Of a stretch of DNA of 64,000 nucleotides, positions 24,965-35,682 are shown in pieces; position 1 is the first letter of the stretch, and each line of letters starts with the position of its first letter. A program made the translations under genes and the position numbers. This DNA comes from Chloroflexota bacterium (GTDB lineage: Bacteria > Chloroflexota > UBA11872 > VXNJ01): the NCBI GenBank assembly GCA_026707405.1, contig JAPOWW010000007.1:19749-83748 (forward strand), written 5' to 3'. The notes beneath the pieces are model-generated. The model saw only the letters and a list, made by a program, of their open reading frames with translations, was not told where the DNA came from and searched no databases.

Positions 24965-26881
24965 ATGGCAACGATTCAGGCAAGTCCCGATCTGGCCGCC
25001 GTCGACTTGCCTCGATTCACCGTCCAGCTTCCGGATATCGACTACTACCGATCCAACGTCGACTGCGCGGCTGCATGCCCCGTTCACACCGACGCGCGCG
25101 GCTATGTCACCGCCATCGAGCGCGGCGACTACGAAGAGGCGTGGTGGATAGCCAGGCAGCCGAACCCCTTCGCTTCTATATGCGGGTGGATCTGCGCGGC
25201 GCCGTGTGAGTCGGCCTGCCGGCGCGGCAGGATCGACGAGCCTATCGGCATAAGAGGGCTCAAGCGGTTCGCAAACCAAATGCACGGAGTGCTGCGGAAC
25301 CCGCTCGACCTCGGAAACGACCTCAAGACCCCGCAAAACTCAAAGACTGCGGGATCTATCTCCGCGATCCTGGAATACGCCCGCAAGTTCGCCGACGAGC
25401 GAAAGACCGGCGCCAGCGTTGCCATTGTCGGAGCCGGTCCCGCGGGACTAACCGCCGCGCACGACCTCTCGCTCATGGGGCATCGCAGCACGATATTCGA
25501 AGCGTCGTCCGCGCCCGGCGGCGCAATGTATCTGGCCGTGCCGGAACATCGCGTCGACCGGCAAATTGTGGCCGCCGAATGTCAGGCAATTCTGGAGATG
25601 CCCGGTGTCGATATTCACTACAAAACCAGGATCGGCGAGGACATCGGGCTGTCCGAGTTGCGCGCCCGCTTCGACGCGGTGGTGCTGACCACCGGACTAT
25701 GGAGGCTGGATCGACCGGCCATTCCGGGAGCGAATCTCGCTGGGGTGGTGGATACCACAAGCTTCGTCGCTGACGGCCTCATGGGAGAAAAACCGGCGGT
25801 CGGGGAACATGTCATCGTCATCGGTGACGACGATTCCGCTTTCGACGCCGCGCGCTCGGCTGTCCGCTTGCAGCTCGCGGCGGGCAAGACTATCGACGTA
25901 AAGCTATTCAGCGCCTCCACTACCAAGGCGACGCTCGGCGAGAACCAGCAGCGCGAAGCGGAGCTCGAAGGCATTTCGGTCTATACGGGCTGGGAGTTGG
26001 TGGAATGCCTCGGCAATGGCCACGCCCAATCCGTCAAGTGCAGACCGACGGTGCGCAACCCGGAAGGGATGGCTGACCTAGGTGTCGAGCGAGACCGAGT
26101 CCGCGGGACCTGGGAGGCCGAGCTGCCGGCCGATACCGTGATTCTCTCCAGCCTGCGAGGCGGAGATCTCGGCTACCTCGAAGGAATACCAGGCATCAAA
26201 GTGGATCAGGTCATCAAGGCTGACGCTTCGACCGGTAGAACCGGCGCAACCGGCCTTTACTCCGGTGGCGATGTCGTTTCCGGTCCGGCGACGATAATCG
26301 ACGCCGTCCAGGCCGGTCACGTGATCGCCCGAAGCGTGGAAGAGGACTTTCAGGAACAAAAGCTCGTTGTCAGACGCAGCGGCCGGATGACCGTGATCCC
26401 TCCCAGCGACTATCTCGTCGACGGATATCTGGACATTCCGCGGCAGACTCCTGACAGCCTGGAAACCTTCGAGCGAACGAGCGACACGCCCGTTGAGCTC
26501 GCATATGACGAGCGACAGGCGCGCACCGAAGCGGCGCGCTGCCTCAAATGCAACGTCAACACAGTATTTAGCTCCGACATGTGCATACTCTGCAATCTGT
26601 GCGTCGACGTTTGTCCCTACGATTGCCTTCAGCTGGTCGGGCTGGACAGCCTCAAAGGTCACGGGCTGGACTCGGCAGTTAAGGGGCGCTATGGTCTCGG
26701 ACTAGACTTCTTCCGTGCGAATTCCTACGACATGCAGGAAGTTGGAACCGCCCTCATGAAAGACGATGACGTTTGCACGAGATGCGGTCTTTGTGTGGAA
26801 CGCTGTCCGACCGACGTAATAACGATGGAGTGGTTCTCGTTTGACGAAAGCCTTGAGCTTGCGGGTGCGGGCGCAATCTAG
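24965..26881 (+). CDS. GltD/NfnB-like FAD-dependent oxidoreductase fused to a C-terminal 2x[4Fe-4S] ferredoxin domain
   Basis: CAAACPVHTDARGYVTAIERGDYEEAW...ICGWICAAPCESACRRG; FAD motif VAIVGAGPAGLTAAHDLSLMGH; second Rossmann motif VIVIGDDDSAFDAARSAV; C-terminal CILCNLCVDVCP and CTRCGLCVERCP. ATG at 24965. Confidence 0.9.
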   Translation: MATIQASPDLAAVDLPRFTVQLPDIDYYRSNVDCAAACPVHTDARGYVTAIERGDYEEAWWIARQPNPFASICGWICAAPCESACRRGRIDEPIGIRGLKRFANQMHGVLRNPLDLGNDLKTPQNSKTAGSISAILEYARKFADERKTGASVAIVGAGPAGLTAAHDLSLMGHRSTIFEASSAPGGAMYLAVPEHRVDRQIVAAECQAILEMPGVDIHYKTRIGEDIGLSELRARFDAVVLTTGLWRLDRPAIPGANLAGVVDTTSFVADGLMGEKPAVGEHVIVIGDDDSAFDAARSAVRLQLAAGKTIDVKLFSASTTKATLGENQQREAELEGISVYTGWELVECLGNGHAQSVKCRPTVRNPEGMADLGVERDRVRGTWEAELPADTVILSSLRGGDLGYLEGIPGIKVDQVIKADASTGRTGATGLYSGGDVVSGPATIIDAVQAGHVIARSVEEDFQEQKLVVRRSGRMTVIPPSDYLVDGYLDIPRQTPDSLETFERTSDTPVELAYDERQARTEAARCLKCNVNTVFSSDMCILCNLCVDVCPYDCLQLVGLDSLKGHGLDSAVKGRYGLGLDFFRANSYDMQEVGTALMKDDDVCTRCGLCVERCPTDVITMEWFSFDESLELAGAGAI

Positions 26882-26907
26882 TGGCCGCGCGATCTAGGCG
26901 TATCTAA

Positions 26908-28509
26908 TTGATCGCGTTGCGTAACAGACTGCTCAGATCAATCGGGAGACCCGACGATCCGGAAGACGTGACCGGCCAGGCGCGGGCCGCCGTTGGCAAC
27001 TTCCTCCTGCAAATCCATTCGGTCAAGGTCAGCCGCAATAGCCTCACCTGGAAAAGCCCGTATGGGCTCGGGCTGATCGCCCTCTACATGTTCATAATCC
27101 ATTTCGTTTCTGGTCTTGCTCTGACGTTCTATTACGTGCCCAGCGTCGAGCGGGCCTACTTGAGCATGATCGAACTGCAGTCGGAGGTCACCTTCGGCGC
27201 GTTCATCACGAGCCTGCACAGATGGTCGGCGCACGGAATGATCATCTTCCTAGTCCTCCACATGCTTAGAGTCTTCTATACCGGCGGTTACAAGCCTCCG
27301 CGGCAGCTTAGCTGGATTATTGGAGTGCTGTTGCTGATCGTGACCGGTAAGCTGGCGTTCTCAGGCTATTTGTTGCCCTGGGACCAGCAGGCGCTCTGGT
27401 CAGTGCAAGTCGCGAGTGAGGTCATCCGATCCGGACCCATCTTCGGAGAGCATGTGCAGCGGGTCGTCTTCGGCGGACCTGACATCGGTCAGGCGACGTT
27501 GACGCGCTTCTACACCATGCACATGACGGTGCTGCCGCTACTCTCGCTGGGACTCATAGGGGCCTATATTTGGAGCCTGCGTCAGCACGGAGGCTTCGCC
27601 GCCCCCGCTGACGAAAAGCTGAACGGAGCTCAGACGGCGACCAGCCGCTACCAGACCGGGGGCGGTCTCCAGGGCGAGGGCGCATTCCCGCGAAACTCCG
27701 ACAAGACCTATGCGCTGGTGGGTTTGGTAAGAGGTTCGTCCGCCGCGGCCGGTTCCGGTCCGCGCGGCACGGTCATGGCCTGGCCTGCCGTATTCCTGCT
27801 TGAACTGGCGGTCCTGGCCGGCGTGGTACTCGTAATGGCCGCGATAAGCGCGTTCGCCCACGCGCCGCTCGGACCGCACGCCGACCCGGCGATTCCCCGG
27901 AATCCCGCCCTAATGCCGTGGTTCCTGTCAAGCATTCAGGAACTCACGCTCCACATGCATCCCGTCTTCGGCGGAATCATGATTCCCACCCTGTTTGTCA
28001 CCGGACTGTTCGCAATCCCGTTTATCGACTGGGACCGTTCCGGCTCCGGAGAATGGTTCGGCGGCAGAAGGGGAGTCATAGCCGCATTCGGGTCCGCCCT
28101 GGCGGCCGGTTTTATCTGGATAGTCCTCGAGTGGCTGGACCTGGGACGTAACCTCGCCTTCCGGTTGAAAGAGGCCCTCGACCTGACCAAGCTCACCGGC
28201 GGAGAAACGCCCAAGTCATGGCCTGAGTCATTCGGTTTCTTCGGACTCTACGATCTGACCGAATGGTCCTCGTTCCTTTGGGCCGGACTGATCCCGTTTC
28301 TCATCGTCATGACCCTGCTGCTCGTCATTGGAGCCGCCGCAAAGTTCGTGTTCGGCGGCAATCGCCGCGAGGTCATGATCTCGATATTTACGGCCACGAT
28401 CGTGTCGATAATGGTGCTGACGTTTATAGGGTCGGCGATGCGCGGGACCGACATGAATCTATATGCCCCTTGGGACCGGCCGAACATAATTGAACTTGAC
28501 AGGCAGTAG
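26908..28509 (+). CDS. Cytochrome b (b6 plus subunit IV-like fused), quinol:cytochrome c reductase-type
   Basis: 533 aa: LTFYYVPSVERAY, LHRWSAHGMIIFLVLHMLRVFYTGGYKPPRQLSW, GYLLPWDQQALW, QATLTRFYTMHMTVLPLLSLGLIGAYIW, NPALMPWFLSSIQEL, C-terminal MRGTDMNLYAPW. Confidence 0.93.
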   Translation: MIALRNRLLRSIGRPDDPEDVTGQARAAVGNFLLQIHSVKVSRNSLTWKSPYGLGLIALYMFIIHFVSGLALTFYYVPSVERAYLSMIELQSEVTFGAFITSLHRWSAHGMIIFLVLHMLRVFYTGGYKPPRQLSWIIGVLLLIVTGKLAFSGYLLPWDQQALWSVQVASEVIRSGPIFGEHVQRVVFGGPDIGQATLTRFYTMHMTVLPLLSLGLIGAYIWSLRQHGGFAAPADEKLNGAQTATSRYQTGGGLQGEGAFPRNSDKTYALVGLVRGSSAAAGSGPRGTVMAWPAVFLLELAVLAGVVLVMAAISAFAHAPLGPHADPAIPRNPALMPWFLSSIQELTLHMHPVFGGIMIPTLFVTGLFAIPFIDWDRSGSGEWFGGRRGVIAAFGSALAAGFIWIVLEWLDLGRNLAFRLKEALDLTKLTGGETPKSWPESFGFFGLYDLTEWSSFLWAGLIPFLIVMTLLLVIGAAAKFVFGGNRREVMISIFTATIVSIMVLTFIGSAMRGTDMNLYAPWDRPNIIELDRQ

Positions 28510-28569
28510 TCACCGAAAAAGCAATGGGATTGGCCCTTTGAATAGTCGTTCTGGATCGGAGTTCGCCAC

Positions 28570-29067
28570 GTGCTGAACGTCGAGCGGGCTGCTGGTACCG
28601 ATCCCATCCAGCGGAACCTCTTCCGGCTCCTGTTCGTTTCGGTAGCCGGGGTGCTGGCTCCAGTTACGATCGCCGTTGCGGCAATCGCCTTCCTCTGGAC
28701 GCCGCAGACGTCGGTAGGCAGCGTCAACGCCGGTCCGGTCGAGGACTACAACCTCCTCGATATGGTCCTGTTCGAGGAAGGCGAGTTTTACCTAACCCGG
28801 CTGCCCGACAGATTCCTAGCAATCAACCAGCGGTCCACGCACATGCGCTGCAAGGTCGCCTGGGATGCCCCATCCCGACAGTTCATAAGCCCTTGCGATG
28901 GGTCCGTATTCGACGACAAGGGAGAGGTCGTTCGCGGCCCTGCGCCCAGACCTCTCGGGACCCATGCGATCACCATCGAGAACGGCGAGCTGATTATCGA
29001 AGTCGGAGACGAAAACGTGCGCAAGCGTGACAAGTACGATCCTGGGCAGGGCGCTGAAATTGGTTAG
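28570..29067 (+). CDS. Rieske-fold subunit lacking canonical [2Fe-2S] ligands
   Basis: N-terminal TM, then STHMRC (for CTHLGC), SPCDGSVFD (for CPCHGS), then RGPAPRPLGTHAITIENGELIIEVG. Lies between cytochrome b and cytochrome c genes. Confidence 0.8.
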   Translation: MLNVERAAGTDPIQRNLFRLLFVSVAGVLAPVTIAVAAIAFLWTPQTSVGSVNAGPVEDYNLLDMVLFEEGEFYLTRLPDRFLAINQRSTHMRCKVAWDAPSRQFISPCDGSVFDDKGEVVRGPAPRPLGTHAITIENGELIIEVGDENVRKRDKYDPGQGAEIG

Positions 29068-29563
29068 GCTGAGTACATCCGAGTTTCTAATGGGAGCGGT
29101 GGCGATCCTCGGCGTCGCCGTTGTCGGGGTGGTGATCGCGGCGTGGACTATGGAGCCGTCCCGCATGGCCGGCGCCCAGACCGATTTTCAACCCGTCCGC
29201 CAGCAAATGATGCAGCGGATGGTGGCAGGAACCGGAGCCGTGGCCGAGGTCCCGCAGGCGACGCCTGCGCCGGTCGCCAGTACCGGCGAGTTCGCCGAAG
29301 CTCACGCGCTGTTCCGGTCCAAGGGTTGCATCGCCTGCCATATAGCCCCAGGAATCCCGGAAGCGGTCGGGACCATTGGGCCTGACCTGAATGGTCTCGC
29401 TTCGCGAGCGATGATCGCCGACGTAATGGAGCTCACCGAAGAAAACCTCGCCAAGTGGATCCACGATCCCGTGGGCATGAAGCCCGATACCGTGATGCTC
29501 AACGTCGGCCTCAGCGACCCCGAGGTCGAAACGCTCGTTACCTGGCTACTGTCGCTCAAATAG
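29027..29563 (+). CDS. Membrane-anchored monoheme c-type cytochrome
   Basis: N-terminal TM, FRSKGCIACHIAPGIPEAVGTIGPDLNGLASR, KWIHDPVGMKPDTVMLNVGLSDPEVETLVTWLLSLK. Exact start uncertain (overlaps the Rieske-like ORF). Confidence 0.87.
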   Translation: MTSTILGRALKLVRLSTSEFLMGAVAILGVAVVGVVIAAWTMEPSRMAGAQTDFQPVRQQMMQRMVAGTGAVAEVPQATPAPVASTGEFAEAHALFRSKGCIACHIAPGIPEAVGTIGPDLNGLASRAMIADVMELTEENLAKWIHDPVGMKPDTVMLNVGLSDPEVETLVTWLLSLK

Positions 29564-31312: not shown

Positions 31313-32065
31313 ATGAATCTCAATGGCGCGGGAGTGCTCGTTACCGGCGCGAGCTCGGGCATCGGACTGGCGACGGCAAGAGCTCTGTTCAGCAAGGGCG
31401 CGCGGCTGGCCGTGGCCGGCCGCGACCGCCAGCGTCTGGCAGATCTGGCTGCGGAGGTCGGCGGTACGGCCATAGTCGCGGATCTCACGGCTGACGAGTC
31501 AATAACGAGGTGCGTCGACGAAGCGGCGAACCATCTCGGAGCAATCGACATTCTGGTGAACAACGCCGGAGTTGGCTGGACAGGAGCCTTCGCGCACATG
31601 CCGGCGATAGATATCGACCATCTCATCCGACTCAACCTGCGTGCCGCGATACTGCTGGCCCGTGAGCTTACGCCTCCGATGATCGCCCGCGGCCGGGGGC
31701 ACATAGTCAACGTGGCGTCGATTGCCGGCCACTTGGGTGTCGGCGGCGAAGCCGTCTATTCCGCCACCAAGGCGGCGCTCATCAACTTCAGCGAAGGCCT
31801 CCGGCAAGAAGTCGCGGACTCCGGCGTCGGGGTTGCGGTTGTCAGTCCGGGAGTGGTCGCCACAGAGTTCTTCAACCGGCACGGTTCCCCTTATTTGAGG
31901 TCATGGCCGCGCCCCATTACGCCCGAAGCGGTGGCCGATGTTATCGTCCGATCTATCGAAACCAACCGCCCGGAGGCCATAGTGCCGAAATGGCTCGGCC
32001 TCGTGGCAAGGCTCAAAGGTAGCTTGCCGGGCGTGTATCGAGCTTTGAACCGCCGGTTTGGCTAG
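31313..32065 (+). CDS. SDR family oxidoreductase
   Basis: 250 aa: VLVTGASSGIGLATARALFSKGARLAVAGRD, ILVNNAGVGWTG, VNVASIAGHLGVGGEAVYSATKAALINFSEGL. Confidence 0.92.
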   Translation: MNLNGAGVLVTGASSGIGLATARALFSKGARLAVAGRDRQRLADLAAEVGGTAIVADLTADESITRCVDEAANHLGAIDILVNNAGVGWTGAFAHMPAIDIDHLIRLNLRAAILLARELTPPMIARGRGHIVNVASIAGHLGVGGEAVYSATKAALINFSEGLRQEVADSGVGVAVVSPGVVATEFFNRHGSPYLRSWPRPITPEAVADVIVRSIETNRPEAIVPKWLGLVARLKGSLPGVYRALNRRFG

Positions 32066-33120
32066 CCGGCGATGCTCTCGAACATCGCTCTGACGGAGTG
32101 CCGAAGCGAGCTTGTCGTTTCCAGCACGGCCGTGGGTTCGTATCCGCAGTGAGCCATGCAGTTGTCGCAGCGGGGATCTCGCCCGCGACCGTATTTTTCC
32201 CAATCGGTCGTTTCGACCAGCTCCTGGTAAGTCTCGACATAGCCGTCAGCCATCAGGTAGCAGGGACGCTGCCAGCCGAAAATCGAGTAGCTGGGAATCC
32301 CCCACGCCGTGCACTGGAAGTCAATTTTCCCTTCGAGAAAATCGAGGAACAGCGGCGAGTGATTGAGCCTCCACTGGCGGCGCTTGCCGTCCGCGAACGC
32401 TTCGCTAAACAGCTTGCGCGCCTGCTCCACCGGTAGAAAGTGCTCCTGATCAGGCGCTTTCCAGTAAGCGTAGCCCGGAGAAATCATCATCGCGTCAACT
32501 TCAAGCTCATTGTTCAGGAAGTCCATCACCGCACGGACGTCTTTCACGGAGTCGTGCGTGAAGATGGTCGTGTTGGTGGTTACGCGGAATCCTTTTTCCT
32601 TCGCCATCTTGATCGCGTCCACCGCAACGTCGAATACTCCCTCCCTGTCCACCGACTGGTCGTGGCGCTCCCGGAGACCGTCAACGTGCACCGCCCACGC
32701 AAAGTAAGGCGACGGTTCGAACAGGTCTATCTTCCTCTTCATCAAGAGTGCGTTCGTGCACAGGTATACGAATTTCTTTCTCGCAATCAGCTCACGCGCT
32801 ATCAGGTGGATCTCCGGGTGAATTAGCGGTTCCCCGCCTGCGATCGAAACCATGGGAGCGCCGCTCTCCTCGATCGCCGCCACGGCAGCCTCCACGGTCA
32901 TCCGCTTCTTAAGGATTTCGACGGGATACTGGATCTTGCCGCAGCCCGTACATGCCAGATTGCAGGCGAACAAAGGCTCTAGCTCGACGATGAGCGGATA
33001 TTTTTCGCGGCCTGCTAGCTTCTGTCTGAGCAGATAGGTAGCGAGCCTCGCTGTCTGCCTTAAAGGTACGCCCATTAACTTCCCTGCAACATCAAACCAG
33101 CGGTGACTGCTCACGCTCAT
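32062..33120 (-). CDS. hpnH: Adenosyl-hopene transferase HpnH (radical SAM)
   Basis: PLIVELEPLFACNLACTGCGKIQYPVEILKKRMTVEAAVAAIEESGAPMVSIAGGEPLIHPEI; next to hpnG and shc. Confidence 0.95.
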   Translation of the reverse strand: MSVSSHRWFDVAGKLMGVPLRQTARLATYLLRQKLAGREKYPLIVELEPLFACNLACTGCGKIQYPVEILKKRMTVEAAVAAIEESGAPMVSIAGGEPLIHPEIHLIARELIARKKFVYLCTNALLMKRKIDLFEPSPYFAWAVHVDGLRERHDQSVDREGVFDVAVDAIKMAKEKGFRVTTNTTIFTHDSVKDVRAVMDFLNNELEVDAMMISPGYAYWKAPDQEHFLPVEQARKLFSEAFADGKRRQWRLNHSPLFLDFLEGKIDFQCTAWGIPSYSIFGWQRPCYLMADGYVETYQELVETTDWEKYGRGRDPRCDNCMAHCGYEPTAVLETTSSLRHSVRAMFESIAG

Positions 33121-33171: not shown

Positions 33172-33780
33172 TCAAGCCCCGACCCGATCTCGCTGGTGCA
33201 ATGCCCAATTCCTCAACGCCGGTCCTAAGCGTGTCAGTGTTCGAAGCCCCTTCACGCCGCCGCCTATTGTTTTGATAGGATCAAATAGTTCCCTGCCCGG
33301 CGTATCCACCACCACCCTCACTACGGCCAAGGGTCGACACCGTGCCGTCCGCGCAAGCCAGGCCGATTCCATGTCCACCGCCATCCCACCCGCGCGGTAC
33401 AGCGTTTTGCGCTCGCCACCCCGCACCAGGTGCTCCGACGAAACGATTAGCCCCGACCTGACCCTGATTTCATCACCCCGCAGTGCCAATACTAGGGATT
33501 CCGATTCGAGCGTCAGACAAGAGCCGTCCGGCCCCCGCACTCCGCTCGCGACGACAAGATCACCCGGTTCTAGAGACGGATCCAGCGCCCCGCAAAACCC
33601 GGCAATTACGAGAACCTTTGGATCAATTCTATCGACCATTGACAGCGCTTCTATGGATTTCTCCCTGCCAAGTCCGGTCTTGAGCACGGTAACGCCGGGA
33701 AGTCCTCGTCGCATGGCCCACGCCTCGATGGCCAGCGGCGTGAGAACCAGAAGCCCCTCCGGAACCGAGCGGCTAACCAT
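33172..33780 (-). CDS. hpnG: HpnG-like nucleoside phosphorylase (adenosylhopane nucleosidase)
   Basis: 202 aa: LLVLTPLAIEAWAMRRG, KTGLGREKSIEAL, VLVIAGFCGALDPSLEPGDLVVAS, AVDMESAWLART; lies between hpnH and shc. Confidence 0.85.
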   Translation of the reverse strand: MVSRSVPEGLLVLTPLAIEAWAMRRGLPGVTVLKTGLGREKSIEALSMVDRIDPKVLVIAGFCGALDPSLEPGDLVVASGVRGPDGSCLTLESESLVLALRGDEIRVRSGLIVSSEHLVRGGERKTLYRAGGMAVDMESAWLARTARCRPLAVVRVVVDTPGRELFDPIKTIGGGVKGLRTLTRLGPALRNWALHQRDRVGA

Positions 33781-33801: not shown

Positions 33802-35682
33802 TCAGCCCTGAACGCTGACGAACCGGCCAAGGGCCATCAACGGAAATACGATTCGATAGAGGTGATATTTAACGTAGAAATCGCCGGGAAAGCCTGTTCC
33901 CGTGTACCACGGTTCATCCCACCCGCCGTCCGGTCGCTGGGTCTCGATCAGAAAGCGTGCGCCGCGAGCCACCGAATAGCCCCGCTCGCCAGCCGCCAGC
34001 AGTGCTACCAGCGCCCAGGCAGTCTGGGAAGCTGTGCTATCCCCTTTACCGACCCATGAACGATCTCGATACGAACGCAGGTCCTCGCCCCAACCGCCAT
34101 CGGCGTTCTGATGCCGCTGCAGCCAGTGAACCGCGCGCCGGATCGCCGGATCCCTGGTCGGCACGTCAGCGGCCACCAAAGCCGTCACAACCGCTCCGGT
34201 GCCATAGACGTGATTGGACCCCCAGCGTCCAAACCAGGAACCGTCGGGTTCCTGCTCGCTCCTTAGCCACTCAATTCCATGTTGCGCCGCATACTCGTCC
34301 TGCCGCCCCACGGCGGCCAGCATTTCGATCGCGTGCGCGGTGACGTCGGCGCTTGGTGGGTCTACCACTGCTCCAAAATCGCAGAACGGCAGCTGGGCAG
34401 CCACGTCTCTATCGTTGTCGGCGTCGAATGCGGCCCAGCCTCCTTCGAGCGACTGCATGCCGATGGTCCATCTGATGCCCCGCTCAATTGCCGGTTCGAT
34501 CCCAAGTACGGAATCGGCACTTACTTGCTTTAGAGCCAGCACTACTTCGGCGGTATCGTCCACGTCGGGATAGTTGACGTTTGCGAACTCGAATGCCCAG
34601 CCGCCCGGTTCGAGGTCTGGCCGTTTAATCTGCCAGTCGCCGGGCACGCGCACCTCGTTCTTCACCAGCCAGTCCGCCCCTCTGTGGATCGAGCTATGGC
34701 CGCCGTCGACACCAGCGTCGGAGAGAGCGATCATAGCCAGAGCCGTATCCCATACCGGCGATTGACACGCCTCGAGCCTCCTCGCGTCACCCTCCCAGAT
34801 AGTGAAGCGGTCGATCCCTTCGAGACCCGCAGCCATAACTGGGTGGTCGAGGCCGTAGCCGCGAAGCGACAACGCGATCAACGAGTAAACCCACGGCGGC
34901 TGTATACCGCCCCACGACCCATCAGCCTCCTGCCGTCTGACTATCCATTGCTCGGCCCTCTCAAGCGCCAGTTGCCGCAACGGTCTGAGAGCACGGTTTT
35001 CGTAGAGCTGAAGACCTTGATCCAGGAGTTGAAACGCGCCGAGACCGGACGCCAAAGGCGGACGCGGCGGATCGGGCGCTCCCGAGCGAATCTCGTCCAG
35101 ATCGAACTCGATGGGGCGGACCGGGCGGTACGCCGATACTACGCTCAAGGCCACGATGGTCTGTCTGGCCCAGCACGCGAAATCGTAGATATTCAGAGGC
35201 GCCCACTTCGGCAGGAAGATCTGCTCCGGGGGCAGCACGGGCACTCGTTCCCAGGACCAGAGGCCGAACAATGCCAGCCATATGCGCGTGAACACGCGAG
35301 TGCGTTCAACGCCGCCGGCATCCAGAATGTAAGCTGCCGCCTTCTTCATGTGGTCCGCGTCGGGACTATCGCCCGCGAGCTTCAGAGCCGTATAGGCCTC
35401 GGTCGTCGTCGAGTGCTCCGGAGGTCCGCCGTAGAAGTTCGCCCACGTTCCGTCAACTCGCTGCTTCGCGCGAATCCAGTTGGCCGTCGCCTGAGTCTCA
35501 CGGCGACCGCGGATACCCAGGAACTCGCGAAGCAGCAAGTCCTCCGCCTCGATCGAGACGTTGGTTTCCAGCTCGCCCTTCCAGTAGCCGTCCGAATGCT
35601 GAAGTCCCAGGAGGTAGTCGCGAGCCCTCTCCATCGCTTCGGCGGCGGTCTGAATCAGGTTAGGGGTTGATTTGGTAATCAT
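33802..35682 (-). CDS. shc: Squalene-hopene cyclase
   Basis: 626 aa with repeated QW motifs (QRVDGTW, QEADGSWGG, QSLEGGW, QEPDGSWFGRWG, QNADGGWGED, QRPDGGWDE) and the catalytic YPDVDDTAEV. Confidence 0.97.
   Translation of the reverse strand: MITKSTPNLIQTAAEAMERARDYLLGLQHSDGYWKGELETNVSIEAEDLLLREFLGIRGRRETQATANWIRAKQRVDGTWANFYGGPPEHSTTTEAYTALKLAGDSPDADHMKKAAAYILDAGGVERTRVFTRIWLALFGLWSWERVPVLPPEQIFLPKWAPLNIYDFACWARQTIVALSVVSAYRPVRPIEFDLDEIRSGAPDPPRPPLASGLGAFQLLDQGLQLYENRALRPLRQLALERAEQWIVRRQEADGSWGGIQPPWVYSLIALSLRGYGLDHPVMAAGLEGIDRFTIWEGDARRLEACQSPVWDTALAMIALSDAGVDGGHSSIHRGADWLVKNEVRVPGDWQIKRPDLEPGGWAFEFANVNYPDVDDTAEVVLALKQVSADSVLGIEPAIERGIRWTIGMQSLEGGWAAFDADNDRDVAAQLPFCDFGAVVDPPSADVTAHAIEMLAAVGRQDEYAAQHGIEWLRSEQEPDGSWFGRWGSNHVYGTGAVVTALVAADVPTRDPAIRRAVHWLQRHQNADGGWGEDLRSYRDRSWVGKGDSTASQTAWALVALLAAGERGYSVARGARFLIETQRPDGGWDEPWYTGTGFPGDFYVKYHLYRIVFPLMALGRFVSVQG

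Follow-up and report, generated by a model that had tools for sequence, protein, structure and literature searches.

Four genes on the forward strand, closely spaced or overlapping, make up the locus at 24,965-29,563 of the window, the window being the whole 64,000-nucleotide stretch of DNA that was analysed; its host genome is 3.13 Mb in size and 94.5% complete, and those of its relatives that bear a name belong to Chloroflexota. Open reading frames and domain matches agreed with the initial annotation in identifying the products as a flavoprotein (FP), a fused cytochrome b, a Rieske-like protein and a monoheme cytochrome c (Table 1). The reading frames of the last two share 41 nt. Genes of hopanoid type were recognized by eye further along the window, namely a radical-SAM HpnH-like gene (32062-33120) and a squalene-hopene cyclase-like gene (33802-35682), with a phosphorylase-like gene (33172-33780) among them.

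Table 1. Genes and sequence features of the FP-Rieske/cytochrome b operon (positions in the window).
Feature	Position	Strand	Remarks
FP	24965-26881	+	638 aa; Fer4_20 + Pyr_redox_2 + two Fer4
Degenerate NAD(P) Rossmann motif GDDDSA in FP	25823-25840	+	GGGxxA-type in FP-bc relatives outside the family
Intact FAD motif SGGDVVSGPATIID in FP	26261-26302	+	eroded in both sister genera
Two C-terminal [4Fe-4S] motifs of FP, CILCNLCVDVCP and CTRCGLCVERCP	26582-26806	+	Fer4 matches, alignment
Fused cytochrome b (b6-like + subunit-IV-like)	26908-28509	+	533 aa
His104, heme b_L ligand, kept	27217-27219	+	alignment
His118, heme b_H ligand, kept	27259-27261	+	alignment
His205, heme b_L ligand, kept	27520-27522	+	alignment
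Tyr220 (TAT) replacing second heme b_H histidine	27565-27567	+	alignment
Rieske-fold protein lacking most cluster ligands, one N-terminal TM helix	28570-29067	+	165 aa
Gln14-Arg15 in place of Tat twin arginine, Rieske-like protein	28609-28614	+	compared with canonical relatives
Ser89-Thr-His91 (canonical Cys-Thr-His), Rieske-like protein	28834-28842	+	first Cys ligand lost, His kept
Ser107-Pro-Cys109-Asp110 (canonical Cys-Pro-Cys-His), Rieske-like protein	28888-28899	+	Cys and His ligands lost, disulfide Cys kept
Membrane-anchored monoheme cytochrome c	29027-29563	+	178 aa; Cytochrom_C E=3e-8
Heme c motif CIACH in cytochrome c	29327-29341	+	sequence

FP is a GltD/NfnB-like protein, in which Pfam and NCBIfam models delimited an N-terminal FeS domain, an FAD fold and a C-terminal ferredoxin domain with two clusters. 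NCBIfam NF009410 matched it with E=7e-98, under that model's own cut-off, and its matches in the PDB were Nfn- and formate dehydrogenase-type structures. It was clear from the alignment that all FeS cysteines and the FAD motifs are conserved with relatives; the FAD site, the two ferredoxin clusters and the N-terminal GltD cysteines had been annotated as intact, and they are. One alteration had been overlooked: the GxGxxA motif of NAD(P) type reads GDDDSA. The GGGxxA-type motif was found intact outside the family and degenerate in every family member.

The cytochrome b matched Cytochrome_B with E=1e-41, and its closest solved structures were those of b6f cytochrome b6 (E=5e-45). An AlphaFold model of the whole protein reached a mean pLDDT of 62, better in the N-terminal four-helix part, and was set aside. 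In the alignment both heme b_L ligands (H104 and H205) were kept, as had been noted from the sequence. The reported alteration of the heme b_H ligand was also found: position 220, 15 residues after H205, is His in 20 of 20 other aligned proteins and Tyr in both species of this genus, leaving the bis-histidine set for two b hemes incomplete with three of four histidines. R223 and D227, nearly invariant elsewhere, are changed as well. The cytochrome b of a sister genus (G002) served as a control; it differs at 17 otherwise invariant positions, and none of its heme histidines was lost. We infer from these positions that heme b_H is missing or strongly altered. The absence of the heme c_N cysteine is not a specific loss, since it is shared by all four aligned family members. 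Loss of the PEWY motif, which the initial annotation had counted among the alterations, was rejected because a PW[FY]...QE-type sequence stands in its place in all alignable relatives, including those whose Rieske and heme ligands are entirely canonical; it is the norm of the class and its ancestral Qo motif. In complexes of the Kuenenia type, an N-terminal histidine of cytochrome b binds an additional heme b where the two halves of the dimer meet. An N-terminal histidine (His37) is present here and in many relatives; the Kuenenia cytochrome b could not be aligned.

The Rieske-like protein gave only a sub-threshold match to the Pfam Rieske model (E=0.0096), but matched the b6f Rieske model with 3e-16, and among solved structures it matched the b6f Rieske protein (5e-11) and the two Kuenenia Rieske structures. 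An AlphaFold2 model of its head had pLDDT values mostly above 90; the best PDB match of this model was Kuenenia kuste4569 (E=5.5e-8, 1.4 A over 96 columns), with b6f Rieske proteins next. Alignment with relatives showed that the canonical C-T-H-L-G-C / C-P-C-H reads S-T-H-M-R-C / S-P-C-D (STHMRC...SPCDGS). Three of the four cluster ligands, annotated as altered, are thus absent in both species of the genus (C89 to S, C107 to S and H110 to D), H91 being the one kept, and the disulfide pair C94/C109 is retained. Identity of the head was 35-45% to most outgroups and 22-26% to family f13, compared with 36-47% and 32-34% for the heads of the canonical sisters, and by this measure it is not grossly more diverged than they are. 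A homologous cytochrome b, a Rieske fold and a c-type heme on the P side are what the operon shares with the Rieske/cytochrome b complexes.

Folded proteins are the cargo of the Tat pathway. The twin arginine precedes the TM helix in 50 of 50 Rieske proteins with canonical ligands, and QR was found in both proteins of this genus (52 rows, including close relatives and repeats; 47 of the RR pairs were counted by an automatic window and three more by reading the sequences). The change from RR to QR in this genus counts as one event. Loss of the twin arginine nevertheless supports a cluster-free Rieske-like protein and hints, separately, that export takes place without prior cofactor insertion; together with the ligand changes, it leads us to infer that the protein lacks a [2Fe-2S] cluster and crosses the membrane in an unfolded state. 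The TM helices of the genus, with hydrophobicities of 2.42 and 2.25 (2.27 in G039), were the most and third-most hydrophobic of ten, which may lend at most weak support to export by Sec. Rieske proteins of actinobacteria and of Paracoccus have been shown to depend on Tat (PMC5449189 and references therein). The loss of the Tat twin arginine alongside ligand loss is new in this analysis, and it may serve as a simple sequence marker of cluster-free Rieske proteins.

The genus is represented by two genomes only. In the second species (G001) the same operon was found on two contigs (loci L036 and L037) with identical ligand changes, at 88-91% nucleotide identity over the operon genes, that is, about 12% divergence. 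Between the two species, dN/dS was 0.12 for FP, 0.05 for one part of cytochrome b and 0.14 for the other, 0.05 for the Rieske gene and 0.02 for its head (all by YN00; 0.03 for the head by NG86) and 0.05-0.07 for cytochrome c, the lower value by YN00, with 0.07 for the flanking LysA gene as control in the same species pair. All four genes are under purifying selection. The expectation that the altered motifs would be co-conserved in open reading frames was borne out in both species, and neither a frameshifted sister copy nor canonical motifs in the close relative were encountered. Loss is concentrated, as initially proposed, in the parts that serve bifurcation: ligands of the Rieske cluster and of heme b_H are gone, and the sites of FP, heme b_L and heme c are conserved.

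Two sister genera of the family (G002 and G003, the latter from record CAJWLF010000010.1, an uncultured Chloroflexi MAG) have the operon in the same genomic position. There, FP, b6, subunit IV, Rieske and cytochrome c genes lie in the arrangement MurT-GatD-[operon]-LysA, b6 and IV being split, with canonical Rieske ligands and all four heme-b histidines. Trees of cytochrome b and FP joined the four family genomes with 100% bootstrap and the Rieske tree with 87%; these trees were rooted at the midpoint, and long branches were flagged. Because the sister operons at this locus have canonical Rieske and heme ligands, the losses are derived, and the branch leading to this genus is where they most likely took place. 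The ancestor of the family is shown by these sequences to have had a canonical Rieske protein and four heme-b histidines; three Rieske ligands, one b_H ligand and the Tat signal then disappeared in the genus, which has b6 fused to IV.

The FAD 'GD' motif of FP behaved differently. It is intact in this genus, reads GQ in G003 and is deleted in G002; the sister-genus FP genes (L038:8097-9956 and L039:7992-9767) lack it despite intact Rieske and heme ligands. General decay was rejected as the cause of FP erosion, the pattern being reciprocal between this genus and both sister genera. The flavin half is kept and the Q-cycle half lost here, with the reverse in the sister genera, and for this we have no firm explanation.

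A scan of genome contigs with FP as query found the gene beside cytochrome b, mostly together with a Rieske gene, in further Chloroflexota, Acidobacteriota and Actinomycetota, and all Rieske proteins at those loci had canonical ligands. Among these loci (L060-L121), the order is FP-Rieske-b6-IV in Acidobacteriota, and cytochrome b is fused in Acidimicrobiia and other Actinomycetota. In a survey of 400 genomes of the phylum, the 30 Rieske loci that were retrieved proved canonical except in this genus. One FP-bc operon that fell inside the Chloroflexota clade stood on a contig labelled Steroidobacteraceae (L077), by binning error or transfer. GltD-type FP with Rieske/cytochrome b operons is known from Kuenenia (PMC12954380) and occurs in several phyla here, and the earlier description of a candidate new system therefore fails at the level of the operon. 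In family f2 of the same order, no match to cytochrome b was obtained; the gene between GatD and LysA there (L174:6116-6679, L177:5428-5991 and L173:7365-7847) encodes a Rieske protein that is anchored in the membrane and has RR and canonical ligands, a Rieske protein without its complex at the same locus. One relative in family f1 is without both cytochrome b and Rieske genes.

A check for bc or ACIII complexes elsewhere in the host genome, recommended at the outset, revealed a set of alternative complex III (ACIII) type consisting of multiheme, molybdopterin-fold and FeS proteins, two NrfD-like membrane proteins, a small subunit and a cytochrome c (subunit names resting partly on reading of the sequences), followed by succinate dehydrogenase genes. 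By eye, an IS30-like transposase gene (L058:15723-16736) was seen right after this ACIII-succinate dehydrogenase cluster. A second canonical bc complex was rejected, the cytochrome b of the operon being the only one found in the genome. Rieske-domain matches elsewhere in the genome were four in number, a SUF-associated Rieske ferredoxin, a large non-bc protein and two proteins of 351-387 aa. The genome also encodes complex I, a 2-oxoacid:ferredoxin oxidoreductase domain and one oxidase, of aa3 type with a c-type CoxB. ACIII was present in G002, G003, G004 and 19 of 19 sampled f2 genomes; it was not found in the G001 assembly, which is 84% complete in 510 contigs. A SAR202 pangenome paper gave no information on complex III. 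The gene content of the host suggests that the normal job of complex III is done by another complex, ACIII.

Taken together, we lean towards the view that the operon probably encodes a derived variant of the b6f-type Rieske/cytochrome b complexes with a flavoprotein, one that selection maintains and that does not bifurcate. By the established bc1/b6f mechanism, a complex with neither the cluster nor a normal b_H heme should be unable to run Q-cycle bifurcation, and since FP, heme b_L and heme c are conserved, residual electron transfer of some kind seems more probable than a pure scaffold. As the most likely wiring, though one that we would not yet call probable, a linear quinone-linked path could lead from FP to quinone, with heme b_L and cytochrome c at its periplasmic end. 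Ferredoxin, not NAD(P)H, would supply FP, which would reduce quinone at the cytoplasmic face; the membrane-bound cytochrome c would stand with heme b_L at the periplasmic end, and the clusterless Rieske head would act as a docking or spacer subunit. However, if b_H is missing, the distance from FP to heme b_L would be too great for electrons to pass directly, and it would be unusual for b_L alone to oxidize quinol. Tyr220 could still ligate a heme, which weighs against a non-bifurcating variant as such, as do the small number of genomes in the genus and the lack of an ACIII match in G001, and a structural role would account for the conserved fold equally well. That role is the main rival of the linear wiring: the membrane part would be redox-poor or inactive, a scaffold that, for example, stabilizes another respiratory complex or holds FP or cytochrome c at the membrane. 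We consider this unlikely but deserving of serious attention, since the fold is conserved where cofactor sites are lost, complex I is encoded in the genome, and the 'deranged' bc1 complex (PMC10715153) offers a precedent with the same pairing of losses and a kept disulfide. On the other hand, the heme c motif, the b_L histidines, the FAD motif and the FeS cysteines are intact and under selection, and they would be superfluous in a pure scaffold.

Both species have Tyr220 at precisely the place of the ligand, and b_H might persist as a low-potential heme with His/Tyr ligation, so that electrons would reach cytochrome c from FP by way of b_H and b_L, or travel in the opposite direction, with quinone taking no part. 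To our knowledge, no natural His/Tyr b_H heme occurs in this family, and the changes at R223 and D227 are a better fit to a lost pocket; such a transmembrane wire seems improbable to us, even though the FP path proposed for Kuenenia requires a low-potential b_N heme (PMC12954380). Early decay of a complex made superfluous once ACIII took over respiration would agree with ACIII across the sampled order, with the missing cytochrome b of f2 and the missing cytochrome b and Rieske genes of the f1 relative, and with the eroded FP motifs of the sister genera. Open frames in both species and dN/dS values of 0.02-0.14, beside 0.07 for LysA, disfavour decay, as does a Rieske head whose divergence from most outgroups is little greater than that of the canonical sisters' heads, and we regard decay as very improbable. 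Each ligand change is one base away from the canonical codon, as a sequencing or assembly artefact would produce; every change recurs in the second genome, in which about 12% of bases differ, and an artefact is thereby refuted, with practically no probability left to it.

The non-bifurcating variant that we prefer shares features with several known systems. Kuenenia stuttgartiensis has two Rieske/cytochrome b complexes with an NAD(P)-oxidoreductase subunit (Kuste4569-4574 and Kustd1480-1485), which are proposed to make NAD(P)H by bifurcation and whose Rieske clusters have high potentials of +303 and +335 mV (PMC12954380). Likeness to them extends to a cytoplasmic-side oxidoreductase with FAD and FeS clusters encoded in the operon, a b6f-type cytochrome b, a subunit-IV-like part, a Rieske protein and a c-type cytochrome. 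The Kuenenia cytochrome c is multiheme, whereas that of the present operon is monoheme; here, moreover, cytochrome b is fused, and besides the NAD(P) motif of FP the complex lacks the cluster ligands, one ligand of heme b_H and the cysteine for heme c_N. The operons of other Chloroflexota, Acidobacteriota and Actinomycetota combine homologous FP, cytochrome b and Rieske genes but, unlike this genus, have canonical Rieske ligands, all alignable heme histidines and canonical NAD(P) and FAD motifs. Cytochrome b6f provides the closest solved cytochrome b and is among the closest solved Rieske sequences; it has no such flavoprotein in its operon, and it has cytochrome f, a Rieske cluster, heme c_N and two b hemes.

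In acidophilic Acetobacteraceae (Acidocella and Acidiphilium), the deranged bc1 has lost three or four Rieske ligands together with b_H ligands, while disulfide cysteines, an intact cytochrome c1 and the genes themselves were retained, and a structural role was suggested (PMC10715153). On the description given there, the present genus resembles it in the loss of most Rieske ligands, the kept disulfide, the loss of b_H ligands (one of two here) and the kept heme c (CIACH). Loss of a Tat motif is not mentioned in that description. The Rieske and b_H ligand losses annotated here are confirmed, and their pairing has this precedent. The deranged bc1 is of petABC type in alphaproteobacteria, whereas here the complex is of b6f type with a flavoprotein, in Chloroflexota and with ACIII in the genome. 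Given canonical sister genera at the same locus, the loss appears to have arisen separately from that in Acetobacteraceae. It is doubtful, though conceivable, that the cluster-free complex is a selected non-bifurcating unit (ferredoxin/FAD - quinone - heme b_L - cytochrome c) independent of the deranged bc1; if true, recurrent joint loss would be a general evolutionary route out of the Q-cycle. Both branches of quinol bifurcation were lost together in this apparently independent case, which concerns another subtype of the complex in a distant phylum, and selection kept the remainder. At one locus, sister genera with canonical ligands can be compared with the ligand-less genus and with a sister family that has the Rieske gene alone, which makes the role of a Rieske/cytochrome b complex without the Q-cycle testable. 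Judged on sequence, a Kuenenia-like architecture and the kind of loss seen in the deranged bc1 are combined here in an unrelated lineage, apparently as a convergent new variant.
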